DNA of 56,328 nucleotides, from the NCBI GenBank assembly GCA_019308785.1, contig JAFDHL010000002.1, positions 1-56,328 on the forward strand, in the 5' to 3' direction. Source of the DNA: Deltaproteobacteria bacterium. Its GTDB lineage: Bacteria; Desulfobacterota; DSM-4660; Desulfatiglandales; Desulfatiglandaceae. Every line of letters begins with the position of its first letter. Position 1 is the stretch's first letter. Positions 166 through 4,208 of the stretch are shown piece after piece. The notes beneath the pieces were generated by a model that made no database searches, had not been told where the DNA came from, and saw nothing but the letters and a program-made list of their open reading frames with translations. A program made the translations under genes and the position numbers.

Positions 166-348
166 ATCCCTTCTCTTCATCAAAATCATGCTTAAACCGC
201 GATCCTTCCGTTTTTTAGCCCCCTTATACCTCCCCTATTGGTTTAAAAACTCTCGTATTTGGTAACTCAGAGTCATGAAACATAACTATTTTTAAACCAG
301 ATTTCCTGTTATTTCCAAGGGAATACGTTACCTTTATGCCAATATTTC

Positions 349-377
349 TTGACAAAACATATGGTTACGCATAATCT
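349..377 (+). promoter_or_regulatory. Sigma-70-type promoter of the HU/IHF gene
   Basis: A perfect -35 box TTGACA (349-354) is followed by a 17-bp spacer and TAATCT (372-377), 26 bp before the ATG at 404. The preceding stretch 166-348 holds no convincing gene. Confidence 0.6.
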
Positions 378-403
378 CAGAAAAAACTGCAAGAGCTTCC
401 GCC

Positions 404-691
404 ATGACCCTTACCAAAGCCCACATCATTAACAGCATTTACAACAACACCGACCTGAATAGACCCCAAGCCACAAGAGCAGTCGAAACCTTTCTTGAAT
501 CAATCAAGAAAGCACTCGAAAGCAGCGAAGATGTCCTTATCACCGGATTCGGGAAATTCTATGTGAATGAGAAAAAGGAACGGCGAGGAAGAAACCCTGC
601 AACCGGTGAAGGCTTGATGCTCCTGCCAAGAAAGGTGATTGCATTCAAGTGCTCTCCAGTGCTCAGGAAGAAGGTAAATGGGGAAAGGTGA
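404..691 (+). CDS. ihfA: HU/IHF-family DNA-binding protein (IHF alpha-like)
   Basis: This 95-residue protein has the length and layout of IHF/HU subunits. Two N-terminal helices (MTLTKAHIINSIYN onward) are followed by the signature ITGFGKF near residue 47 and a DNA-binding beta arm with RRGRNPATGE, where Arg-Asn-Pro is the intercalating tip. Such proteins bend DNA as dimers in the nucleoid, and IHF is also the usual co-activator of sigma-54 promoters; rpoN lies in this window. The N terminus resembles IHF-alpha more than HU, but the alpha/beta/HU choice is not certain. It sits between tRNA-Cys and the left end of a gene-cassette array and has its own promoter. Confidence 0.85.
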   Translation: MTLTKAHIINSIYNNTDLNRPQATRAVETFLESIKKALESSEDVLITGFGKFYVNEKKERRGRNPATGEGLMLLPRKVIAFKCSPVLRKKVNGER

Positions 692-897
692 GGTTTTTAT
701 TTCATTCACTATTGTTTAACAGAATTGGTTTTATGATGGCGGCGCTTGCATTTGGCAAGCAGTCTTTAATAACCAAAGAACGCTTGTAAGAGTTGTGTAC
801 TGCAAAATAATGAAAGCAGTATTTACGGGCATAATACGTTATTATGCGGAAAATATATAGTGTTAATATACAAAATTTTTTCTGCTTAATACAATAC
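692..897. other. Non-coding left border of the cassette array, with two hairpins
   Basis: No gene is seen. GTTTAAC at 714-720 resembles an attC R'' box and is followed by an inverted pair TTGGTT/AACCAA enclosing CTTGC-ATTTG-GCAAG, but no matching R' box follows. A second perfect inverted repeat GCATAATA/TATTATGC lies at about 820-840. This could be a decayed attC or attI region. No integrase gene is present. Confidence 0.3.
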
Positions 898-929
898 GTT
901 AGCCGACATCCTCATATTGGAGAAACAAA

Positions 930-1583
930 ATGTTTAAGAAATACACAATCGCTGGGGAGAACAATCCCATTTGGCAGCTCGTGGAACCGGTAATACTCAA
1001 GACATGGGCGGGTGGAATGTCCAAAGCTTCTTATCCTCGTCTTTATCTAATTCATTTTATGTCTTTGCTGATAGCCCTAGTCACGTTTCTTGGAGGATTT
1101 GTGCTAAGGATATTACTTGTTGGGGCCATTCTTTTTTTGGGATACGCAGTCTTTGAGGAATCTTTAACTTTGGCATTTAGTGCTGTTTTTCCATCGTTTG
1201 GAATGGATACAACCATAATGAATAATGGTGACAAAAGTAGTTTGTGGATATATCACGTGTTGGGGTATGTAATTCTAATTAAAAGCGTGATTTTCGTTTT
1301 CGGGAAGAATTTTACCGACTGCATGCAAGATACCGCACTGTATCTGTTGTTTATGGTTACCGGAATGATTCCACTAAAATGGATAGCCCGAGGTCTTATC
1401 AAAGAGAACTATTTCGTGCAGTTGTTTGCGAAAAAACGCTTTATGGGTATGCACATAGCTCAAACGATTTCAGCGGCACCACCTGAGATTGAACAGCTAT
1501 ACGATAAGATCTTCGACTTATATCAAAAATCGAATGATGAGAATGCAAGAAAGCAATTGGAAGAGCTGTGTGCAACTTACTGA
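930..1583 (+). CDS. Cassette 1: multipass membrane protein of unknown function
   Basis: This 217-residue protein is not recognised as a known family. Hydrophobic segments at about residues 42-75 (probably two passes), 105-125 and 133-152 suggest four membrane spans. They are followed by a soluble C-terminal tail of about 60 residues (IARGLIKENYFVQLFAKKRF onward) that is helical and charged. The gene is the only one in its cassette, which starts at the GTTAGCC box (898-904) and ends with the attC at 1630-1687. The short leader between cassette start and ATG contains GGAGAAAC, a reasonable ribosome site. No promoter is evident, as is usual for integron cassettes. Base composition is AT-rich compared with the housekeeping genes downstream, fitting acquired DNA. 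Confidence 0.75.
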   Translation: MFKKYTIAGENNPIWQLVEPVILKTWAGGMSKASYPRLYLIHFMSLLIALVTFLGGFVLRILLVGAILFLGYAVFEESLTLAFSAVFPSFGMDTTIMNNGDKSSLWIYHVLGYVILIKSVIFVFGKNFTDCMQDTALYLLFMVTGMIPLKWIARGLIKENYFVQLFAKKRFMGMHIAQTISAAPPEIEQLYDKIFDLYQKSNDENARKQLEELCATY

Positions 1584-1629
1584 AAAATCAATGAGCCCCC
1601 GTAGAGTTTAGGCATGTCACATCAAAATC

Positions 1630-1687
1630 GGCTAACAATCAAATCCAGCCGACCTCCTTCGTCGTCGGCTGATTTGAAGCGTTAAAG
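1630..1687 (+). other. attC site of cassette 1
   Basis: The R'' box GGCTAAC (1630-1636) and R' box GTTAAAG (1681-1687) flank an imperfect palindrome with arms CAAATC/GATTTG and CAGCCGAC/GTCGGCTG. GGCTAAC is the exact reverse complement of GTTAGCC at 898-904, the start of the same cassette, as expected for an excised circular cassette. Confidence 0.9.
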
Positions 1688-1718
1688 CGCAAAGAAATAA
1701 TACTTTAGGGATAGCGAT

Positions 1719-2510
1719 ATGATGAAGGAGAGAGATCCATCATATAATCATCCAGCTTTTCCGCAACCGAATGACACCACCATATCCGTTTGGCGGTACA
1801 TGGATTTTGAAAAATTCGAGTGGATTGTGAACAACAGCCGTCTATTTATGCCACCCACTGCCCGGCTTGGAGACCCATTTGAAGGGACAACCCCCAGAGG
1901 TGAATTGCAGTGGTGGCAACGCAAGGCAGAGAACACTGATTCAGATGAACAAAGACAGATCATGAAATACAATCGAGGCCTGATCTCCCGCATGGCTAAA
2001 CAATTTCGTGAAAACTACTATGTGAGTTGTTGGCACATTAACGAATTCGAAAATTATGCTATGTGGCAGTGCTACACAAAAAGCATTAATGCAGTAGCAA
2101 TCAGAACCAGTTATGCATCCCTAAGAGCCTGTTTGCCAAGCTATGTCGAGATGGGATTGGTCCGGTATATCGACTACGCCATAGAGCGCCTTCCTTCACT
2201 GAACCTATTTGAGTACATCATGCACAAGGATATATACTACAGCTATGAAAATGAAGTTCGGGCTGTAGCGGCTTCCTTCATCGCATATGAAGAGTGGCAA
2301 AAGCATTTTAGTGAGAACCATTTCGAGTTAAAAAATTCCCCAGGATTTCTATTTTATGCGCCAACTATAGATTTAACTCAATTAATTGTTGGCGTAGTTC
2401 TTCATCCTGAAATTCCATCGGATGTTCAAGCAAAAGCCGTTGATCTTTGTATAAAAAACGGGCTAAGCCAGCCTACGTTGTCACGCAGAGCACAAGAGCC
2501 AGTATATTAA
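1719..2510 (+). CDS. Cassette 2: DUF2971-family protein
   Basis: This 263-residue protein has the DUF2971 layout. An N-terminal WRYMDFEKFEWIV segment is followed by LFMPPTARLGDPFEG, then YVSCWHINEFENYAMWQCYT, and later DIYYSYENEVRAVA. The family is widespread in mobile contexts; its biochemical role is not established, and DUF2971 genes recur near defence genes. It is the single gene of a cassette whose start (GTTAAAGC, 1681-1688) and end (GCTTTAAC, 2562-2569) are exact complements. The start ATG at 1719 is followed by a second ATG, and either could be used. Confidence 0.8.
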   Translation: MMKERDPSYNHPAFPQPNDTTISVWRYMDFEKFEWIVNNSRLFMPPTARLGDPFEGTTPRGELQWWQRKAENTDSDEQRQIMKYNRGLISRMAKQFRENYYVSCWHINEFENYAMWQCYTKSINAVAIRTSYASLRACLPSYVEMGLVRYIDYAIERLPSLNLFEYIMHKDIYYSYENEVRAVAASFIAYEEWQKHFSENHFELKNSPGFLFYAPTIDLTQLIVGVVLHPEIPSDVQAKAVDLCIKNGLSQPTLSRRAQEPVY

Positions 2511-2562
2511 AGGCCTATTTTAATAAAGAGAAAATGCTCCATTAATTTTTTAAAAGAGAGCG

Positions 2563-2737
2563 CTTTAACAAGGCTCTTGCAGCCGATCGCTAAAAGCGTC
2601 GGCTGAAGAGCAGCGTGTGTGCCAGGCATGGCACGTAGCTAGTGAGGTGAAAGTCCTCATATCAGGTGTTCGCGGAGCCTAAGGTTAGGAGAAGGGCAAG
2701 GGCGTCGTCGTGAGGCTCCTCCCTATCCCGATTATGC
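2563..2737 (+). other. attC site of cassette 2, interrupted by an intron remnant
   Basis: The R'' box CTTTAAC (2563-2569) and a palindrome with arms GCTCTT/AGAGC and CAGCCGA/TCGGCTG end at GCGT (2613-2616). The R' box is split. Removing 2617-2732 joins GCGT to TATGC and restores GTTATGC, the exact complement of the R'' box GCATAAC of cassette 3 at 3305-3311. The reconstructed site is 59 bp. Confidence 0.85.
2617..2732 (+). mobile_element. Internally deleted group II intron (group IIC-attC-like) remnant
   Basis: The first bases GTGTGCC and the following stretches CAGGCATGGCAC, AGGTGAAAGTCCTC and GGGCAAGGGCGTCGTCGTGA match, as I recall them, the 5' part of domain I of bacterial group II introns. 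The last bases CCCGAT match an intron 3' end (AY). There is no reverse transcriptase and no recognisable domain V, so only both tips remain, 116 bp in total. Excision in silence restores a perfect attC R' box, which fixes both boundaries. Group IIC-attC introns are known to insert into attC sites of integron cassettes. Confidence 0.75.
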
Positions 2738-2791
2738 TTTAAAGTACTACTACAAAAAGATGTGCTGTTCTCCCTTATTTAGAAGCTTGGC

Positions 2792-3280
2792 ATGGGGGCA
2801 AACAAAATGAAAAATGAATCCCAAGAAAAAGGATTTATTGAAGAACGGATCCAAAGTTGTGGAGAGATTGAACAACGATTAGCTACCCTAGATTTTAACA
2901 ATTGGTCAAAAGAGGTTGGTCTTTTGGGCAATCATCAGAGTTCAATGTCAAAGATTCATTTCATGATGGATGAATTAAATTTATACAATAAAATCCATGA
3001 ATATAAATTCCATTTACGTGGCAACAAAATTATACGTTTCTGGTTCACTGGCAGTAGCGGAGAAATAGATTTTGATGAGATGGATATTAATGATTTTTTA
3101 GATCAGAATGAATACAATTTCAAAAATACACACTATATGCACCTATTTTTGTCTATATTTACATTGGGGTTATATCGCCACATCATTCCATGGTTAATAA
3201 AGCGGCAAGAGAGACAAAACAAAAAACAAATTGAAAAACTTAAACAAAAAATCGGAACATGGAAACCCCATAAGATTTAA
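2792..3280 (+). CDS. Cassette 3: small unknown protein with C-terminal membrane segment
   Basis: This 162-residue protein belongs to no family I recognise. The first 110 residues are soluble, charged and predicted mixed helix and strand (KIIRFWFTGSSGEIDFDEMDINDF). A hydrophobic stretch near 113-137 (YMHLFLSIFTLGLYRHIIPW) could be one membrane span. It is followed by a strongly basic tail rich in Lys, Arg and Gln. Start choice is uncertain: ATG 2792, or ATG 2807, which has GGGGG about 8 bp upstream. It is the sole gene of the cassette that begins at 2733, right after the intron remnant. Confidence 0.65.
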   Translation: MGANKMKNESQEKGFIEERIQSCGEIEQRLATLDFNNWSKEVGLLGNHQSSMSKIHFMMDELNLYNKIHEYKFHLRGNKIIRFWFTGSSGEIDFDEMDINDFLDQNEYNFKNTHYMHLFLSIFTLGLYRHIIPWLIKRQERQNKKQIEKLKQKIGTWKPHKI

Positions 3281-3304
3281 CTGCTTGCTTTGTATATCCT
3301 AGAA

Positions 3305-3376
3305 GCATAACAAGTTGCTGGAGAATCGACGGGAAAACGCTGGCGCGTTTCCCACGTCTCAGCTCCAGCGTTAGAG
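3305..3376 (+). other. attC site of cassette 3
   Basis: R'' GCATAAC (3305-3311) and R' GTTAGAG (3370-3376) flank L-box arms GCTGGAG/CTCCAGC and an inner imperfect stem around CGCTGGCGCG. It is closely similar to the attC at 4203-4274, so the two share an origin. Total length 72 bp. Confidence 0.92.
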
Positions 3377-3383
3377 ATGAATT

Positions 3384-4208
3384 ATGGAAGAAATAACGGT
3401 TGAAACTTGGGAAGAATTTGAAGCGAAACTGGCAGACCTGCTTAAGCAGCGGGAAGAATGGACAGAAAGGACTTCTCTGTACATTTCCGATCTTTTGTAT
3501 AGGGGGCAATCGAATTCCAGTTGGAAGCTTAAAACAACTTTAGAAAGAGTTGTGCATACGCAAATGAGTATGTATAAATACTACAAAACTATCCATTCTT
3601 CGAGATATAGAGTGGAAACTTTCACTGAAACATCTTGGGATATTCCTGCTCCTGAGAAATACAAAGATTGGCTTGAAAATGAAGTCAATTTATTCTTGGA
3701 CAGTTTACCTGCCACCAACTACATGGTCTATCTGAGGCATCTAGGATTCCCGTCACCACTTTTGGATTGGACTTCTTCACCGTATATTGCCGGATTCTTC
3801 GCATTTGACAAAGCAAACGATGAAATCCCTTTTGTGTCTATATACGTTTTCTTGGAATATATGGGAGAGGGGAAAGAGGCATCAAGCTGGGAGCCAAATA
3901 TTTCTACCATTGACGAATATGTCAAAACTCACAAAAGGCATTTCTTACAACAAAGCAAGTACACTATTTGTACAGAAAAAAAAGAAGATGAATTGTTATA
4001 TTATGCTCACCACGAAGATAAACCAAATCGCAACGGCCGAGATCAAGACCATTTATGGAAATTCAATATACCAATCCGAGAACGAATAAAGGTGTTGAAA
4101 AAACTTGACAGTTTCAACATCAATTCATTCTCTCTATTTGGCTCAGAAGAAAGTCTCATAGACACGATAGCAACGAGGGAATTCATTATAAAGGAAAGGC
4201 ACCTCTAA
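3384..4208 (+). CDS. Cassette 4: FRG-domain protein
   Basis: This 274-residue protein has the FRG domain, named for the Phe-Arg-Gly-type motif, here DLLYRGQSNSSWKLKTTLER (residues about 32-51). It also has the downstream conserved LRHLGFPSPLLDWTSSP and an FFAF segment near residue 140. FRG proteins are frequent in mobile and defence neighbourhoods and are suspected enzymes or toxins, but no reaction is firmly assigned. The ATG lies only 14 bp after the cassette recombination point at 3370, and the stop codon TAA overlaps the R'' box of its own attC, a compact arrangement typical of cassettes. Confidence 0.85.
   Translation: MEEITVETWEEFEAKLADLLKQREEWTERTSLYISDLLYRGQSNSSWKLKTTLERVVHTQMSMYKYYKTIHSSRYRVETFTETSWDIPAPEKYKDWLENEVNLFLDSLPATNYMVYLRHLGFPSPLLDWTSSPYIAGFFAFDKANDEIPFVSIYVFLEYMGEGKEASSWEPNISTIDEYVKTHKRHFLQQSKYTICTEKKEDELLYYAHHEDKPNRNGRDQDHLWKFNIPIRERIKVLKKLDSFNINSFSLFGSEESLIDTIATREFIIKERHL

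Follow-up and report, generated by a model that had tools for sequence, protein, structure and literature searches.

Introduction

Group IIC-attC introns have been described in the bottom strand, in the orientation opposite to the cassettes, at R'' (PMC7923331). More in general, bacterial group II introns are counted by looking for the reverse transcriptase or for domain V, and ORF-less copies are described as rare; in the chloroplasts of Euglena, group III introns are about 90-120 nt long and sometimes consist of domains I and VI only, with no domain V (PMC4424553). Because surveys search for these features, copies that have lost both the reverse transcriptase and domain V remain uncounted.

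Here, we analysed a 56,328-nucleotide stretch of Desulfobacterota DNA (contig JAFDHL010000002.1, hereafter the window) that carries an array of five cassettes, the third of which is opened by an R' box split by a 116-bp insert. The insert is a real and precisely bounded derivative of a group IIC intron, and its interest comes mainly from the recurrent class to which it belongs, a class missed by surveys based on the enzyme or domain V.

The insertion site

The R' and R'' boxes are exactly complementary within each of the five cassettes (898/1630, 1681/2562, split box/3305, 3370/4204, and 4268/4867), and only the start of the third cassette is split. There, the 116-bp insert GTGTGCC...CCCGAT, at 2617-2732 on the forward strand, divides the box as GT/TATGC. 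It lies between two cassette genes, one ending at 2510 and the next starting at 2792. The features of the site are the following:

2562-2569, + strand, R'' box of the cassette 2 attC site, GCTTTAAC, complement of the cassette 2 start GTTAAAGC at 1681
2573-2611, + strand, attC hairpin in the top strand, −17.5 kcal/mol as DNA, z −5.3
2615-2616, + strand, left piece (GT) of the split R' box GT/TATGC
2617-2732, + strand, 116-bp insert GTGTGCC...CCCGAT, almost certainly an internally deleted group IIC intron
2733-2737, + strand, right piece (TATGC) of the split R' box, start of cassette 3
3305-3311, + strand, cassette 3 R'' box GCATAAC, exact complement of the restored GTTATGC

Joining the flanks without 2617-2732 gives GCGTTATGC, in which the restored GTTATGC is the exact complement of the R'' box GCATAAC at 3305. 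The two boxes of cassette 3 pair only when 2617-2732 is skipped, so the boundaries given by the first-pass annotation, made from the letters of the window, are right to the base. It had also placed the insertion at GT/T within an attC R' box, as the complementarity of the boxes in all cassettes and the upstream hairpin confirm: the hairpin (z −5.3) stands directly upstream of the insertion, and the GT/T of the attC box is the target. Paralogous attC sites on contigs C35 and C183 of the same genome are uninterrupted (GCCGTTATGG and GCAGCGTTCGG).

As for the rest of the array, a repeat of ~75-90 bp precedes the first cassette (window 813-902) and may be an attI site or part of a leader; it recurs on other array contigs (L073 58-147, 7341-7426, and 9563-9634; L015 6604-6677). 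Among the cassette genes, one encodes an FRG domain (PF08867, window 3384-4208) and one Sel1 repeats (PF08238, 4365-4850), while the other four proteins tested gave no Pfam match.

Homology to class C introns

The first 100 nt of the insert are 93% identical to a stretch of contig C342 of the same genome (E = 3.2e-37). In Rfam, this contig matches the group II intron domain RF02001 (122 bits), and it also holds the first part of a reverse transcriptase, truncated by other DNA; the E value and the Rfam domain together exclude a chance match. The first-pass annotation had made its reading depend on a resemblance between 2617-2732 and a group II intron 5' domain, and the match to C342 provides it. 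Searching the window's genome (G000) with the region returned the intron start on C342, two further short forms (C262, 99 bp, and C35, 194 bp), and intron 3' ends on C112 and C306. No intact class C reverse transcriptase is left in this genome.

Complete introns with the same ends are present in related genomes (G033, 1930 bp; G038, 1959; G044, 1812; G369, 1982; G285, 1862), and the 5' part of the insert is 87-92% identical to the closest of them. The protein encoded by the G033 intron (contig C21) is by far most similar, along its length, to the GsI-IIC reverse transcriptase (445 bits), with LtrA and the other listed non-IIC group II enzymes scoring 140 bits or less, and on this basis the intron is assigned to class C. 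Independent copies with unrelated flanks share both exact ends.

Taken as a whole, these comparisons make us highly confident that the insert derives from a class C intron by internal deletion. That it is instead an ordinary part of a cassette, or a repeat of another kind, is extremely improbable; we rejected this candidate on account of the insert's homology to Rfam-recognised and enzyme-coding group II introns, the exact ends common to many insertions, and the empty paralogous attC sites.

Structure of the 116-bp form

Aligned with its complete relatives, the insert is divided as follows:

2617-2706, + strand, retained 5' part of domain I (intron nt 1-90), 93% identical to the C342 intron start and 87-92% to complete introns
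2707-2716, + strand, junction repeat GTCGTGAGGC, found in G033:C21 at domain I nt 91-100 and at domain VI nt 1905-1914
2717-2732, + strand, 3' strand of domain VI and intron 3' end, identical or near-identical to the 3' ends of complete introns
2725, + strand, candidate branch-point A, placed by its distance to the 3' end

Nucleotides 1-100 of the insert follow domain I and the last 26 nt follow domain VI, with GTCGTGAGGC as the overlap. This repeat is present in both domains of two relatives (G033 and G261), and both of its copies would fold as hairpins with GNRA-type loops. Domain VI retains its 3' strand, its loop, and the A at 2725, while its 5' strand is replaced by domain I sequence. Thus, the domain I-like 5' sequence reported in the first-pass annotation stands, but the insert is not domain I-like only, as its last 26 nt are the 3' end of domain VI.

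The insert has lost the reverse transcriptase, domains II-V, and the greater part of domain I: coherently with what had been noted at first reading, we found no domain V motif in 2617-2732 and no ORF within the 116-bp insert. The ends of the insert follow the 5' GUGYG / 3' AY rule and are the same as in complete relatives. In complete copies RF02001 starts near intron nt 88, and nearly all of it is absent from the insert. The Rfam search suggested by the first-pass annotation, run on 2400-3000 at E ≤ 10, gave chance matches only and no group II match, because the modelled domains are gone; the homologous C342 does carry RF02001. The RNA of the 116-bp form is not more stable than its shuffles (z −0.67). 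A group II intron without domain V can neither splice nor reverse splice in cis. Judging from its sequence, the 116-bp copy is most likely a dead derivative.

Census of related copies

We searched 85 genomes of the order (the class-level set consists of the same 85 genomes) and 395 drawn from the phylum Desulfobacterota, counting the copies not located at a contig edge. The presence of domain V was decided on its sequence motif, as an Rfam domain V match at gathering score is absent even in complete copies. On this criterion, five copies were complete, with enzyme and domain V (~1.8-2.0 kb), one had the enzyme and no domain V, and five class C copies were ORF-less with domain V (442-646 bp; L061, L065, L173, L175, and L178). 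Twelve copies of 72-202 bp kept both ends and had no domain V (some of these, in which inserts kept the script from recognising the 5' motif, were assigned on visual inspection):

Window genome: window, 116 bp; C262, 99 bp; C35, 194 bp
Other genomes: G032, 193 bp; G079, 116 bp; G292, 202 bp; G173, 164 bp
Other genomes: G138, 188 bp (twice) and 177 bp; G101, 72 bp; G201, 72 bp

Furthermore, domain V was broken in two copies (G201, 219 bp, and G228, 616 bp), the 5' end was eroded in two (G033:C294 and G239), and about 13 non-edge copies had lost one end. Nearly all insertions are at CGT/T and reconstitute GTT; many or most of them follow attC hairpins, while C262, G033:C21, and G030:C5 show none. 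The first-pass annotation had suggested looking for the short form in other attC sites, and similar gutted copies indeed recur, mostly at attC. Of the two options offered at first reading, internal deletion clearly holds, while a miniature form is found only in the sense of many gutted copies.

A second 116-bp copy, in G030, was discarded as independent evidence: the 3155-bp contig on which it lies matches window 268-3422 with 100% identity over its whole length. The contig (G030:C85, JAFDDR010000278.1) belongs to the assembly of another genus, which indicates mis-binning or a very recent transfer. Likewise, two genomes of different families, G014 (L064 2114-4022) and G078 (L090 980-2888), share a 1909-bp intron that retains the enzyme and has domain V deleted, and its immediate flanks are also the same in both, which again indicates mis-binning or transfer.

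Pattern scans of viral contigs gave no short forms; among genome contigs, the one identical to the window was the sole match. The exact pattern, run over the 395 phylum genomes, found the window genome's two short forms only, being too strict for diverged copies. None were found in phages, and plasmids gave intron heads and no short forms, the intron being complete where inspected (pEC732_IMP14).

REP-like palindromes lie inside domain I of several copies (L015 20-213, L057 322-514, and L061 859-1438) and are abundant elsewhere in the intron-bearing genomes. The middle of one 188-bp short form (L188 1779-1966) resembles, as judged by eye, the beginning of a Y1 transposase gene of the REP-associated type.

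In the searched genomes, copies without domain V and enzyme are at least as common as complete introns. In cassette arrays, such gutted copies are the traces of old insertions; they reveal the points at which DNA repair or the copying enzyme fails, and their presence changes the boundary to be cut by the integrase. They are also natural material for asking if a two-ended group II intron can be rescued in trans.

Origin of the short form

The favoured history starts with a group IIC attC-type intron inserting into the R' box of an attC site, on the strand of the cassette genes and just past the attC hairpin. The core would be lost while the RNA is copied into DNA: the class C reverse transcriptase would start in the 3' exon, copy domain VI, stop at structured RNA, jump to the matching domain I hairpin, and finish the copy. 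Such a jump from domain VI to domain I would leave both intron ends in place. The product would be the 5' part of domain I fused to the 3' strand of domain VI, predicted to be unable to splice or move alone, and left as a scar at the cassette boundary.

We lean modestly towards this origin, a reverse-transcriptase jump during insertion. The main rival is a DNA deletion at the same repeats: the full intron would have inserted, and ~1.8 kb would later have been lost in place between direct repeats in domain I and domain VI. We judge this possible but rather unlikely. The junction sits on a repeat common to the two domains, and either process would give an identical sequence. Indeed, in G033:C21 the 10-bp direct repeat lies at nt 91-100 and 1905-1914, and a deletion between its copies gives the window junction; the other joins likewise use 1-9 bp of shared sequence, and the loss of every intact reverse transcriptase of the class from G000 also speaks for deletion in place. 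A repeat of 9-10 bp is not longer than expected by chance for stretches of such size (shuffles: mean 7, maximum 9-12).

Against a deletion in place stands the frequency with which both ends survive. Both exact ends are kept in 12 of about 25 deleted non-edge copies, while a single deletion of ~1.7 kb, placed at random so as to touch an intron of 1.93 kb, would spare both about 6% of the time, a rough estimate that assumes single, independent, and neutral deletions, where some copies are related, deletions may be stepwise, and selection may remove those reaching neighbouring genes. Hotspot repeats could explain part of the surplus, which points to a process that respects the ends. Several joins lie at the domain V/VI border or in the domain VI loop, and these are plausible take-off points for an enzyme halted by structured RNA. 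Group II intron reverse transcriptases are known to switch templates (PMC5566474).

The 116-bp form of G079, a genome of another family, has the same domain I/domain VI join as the window form. In the tree, the 5' part of the G079 form clusters with another complete intron, that of G014 (bootstrap 94), and a common origin of the two forms is disfavoured (deltaLnL 14, AU p 0.053). Having the same join and another parentage, the two forms suggest that the join is likely a hotspot.

A further explanation is that the short forms are non-autonomous units, needing only their two ends and mobilised in trans by a complete intron in the cell that carries them. This reading could apply to three pairs of short forms that have inner features in common. 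The same 72-bp form occurs with about 94% identity and different immediate flanks in two species (G101 and G201), but the pair has a homologous block of 935 bp located 1.1-1.7 kb upstream and may be one ancestral locus. The 193- and 194-bp forms (G032 and C35) are 90% identical, have three inserts in common, and occupy unrelated attC sites, one in each of two genera; a single origin for these two forms and the window form is neither favoured nor excluded by the AU test (p 0.25). Finally, the G138 188-bp and G201 219-bp copies share a domain I deletion and inserts over their 5' 140 nt at different sites. These pairs could result from short forms that moved, from parents that underwent deletion twice, or from a single locus whose neighbourhood has changed. 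It is established ribozyme knowledge that reverse splicing should be impossible with domain V and most of domain I missing, and no multi-copy burst was seen, so that we consider movement in trans improbable. Slightly more doubtful still is the broader idea that class C introns keep a standing set of tiny derivatives, ended by domains I and VI and spread in trans by complete introns. If true, bacteria would have their own counterpart of group III introns, which could serve as a model of how self-splicing introns shed their catalytic core.

Comparison with known systems

The window insert departs from the bottom-strand, opposite-orientation rule described for IIC-attC introns: it lies in the R' box, in the orientation of the cassettes, next to a top-strand hairpin. 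The first-pass annotation had reported this orientation, which is real and also found in the class 1 integron of the Escherichia coli plasmid pEC732_IMP14, where a complete intron occupies the aadA1 attC site (GCGT/TAGATGC) in cassette orientation. The orientation is thus not special to the window copy, and the variant is already present in clinical integrons.

Compared to the group IIC-attC introns of the S.ma.I2 type and Kl.pn.I3, the complete relatives of the window form have a class C enzyme as well, and the target (the GT/T of an attC box past a hairpin) and the ends (5' GUGUG, 3' AU) are alike. Unlike them, the window copy has no domain V, no enzyme, and little of domain I, and it stands in the R' box in cassette orientation. 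With the bacterial ORF-less group II introns it shares the absence of an enzyme gene, and the same phylum holds copies of 442-646 bp with domain V; those introns, however, keep domain V and may splice with help, whereas the window copy lacks it. The group III introns of Euglena lie inside genes and are removed by splicing with trans factors, while the window form lies between cassettes and is predicted not to splice; in its 116-bp length and its build, the 5' part of domain I joined to the 3' part of domain VI, the window form resembles them.
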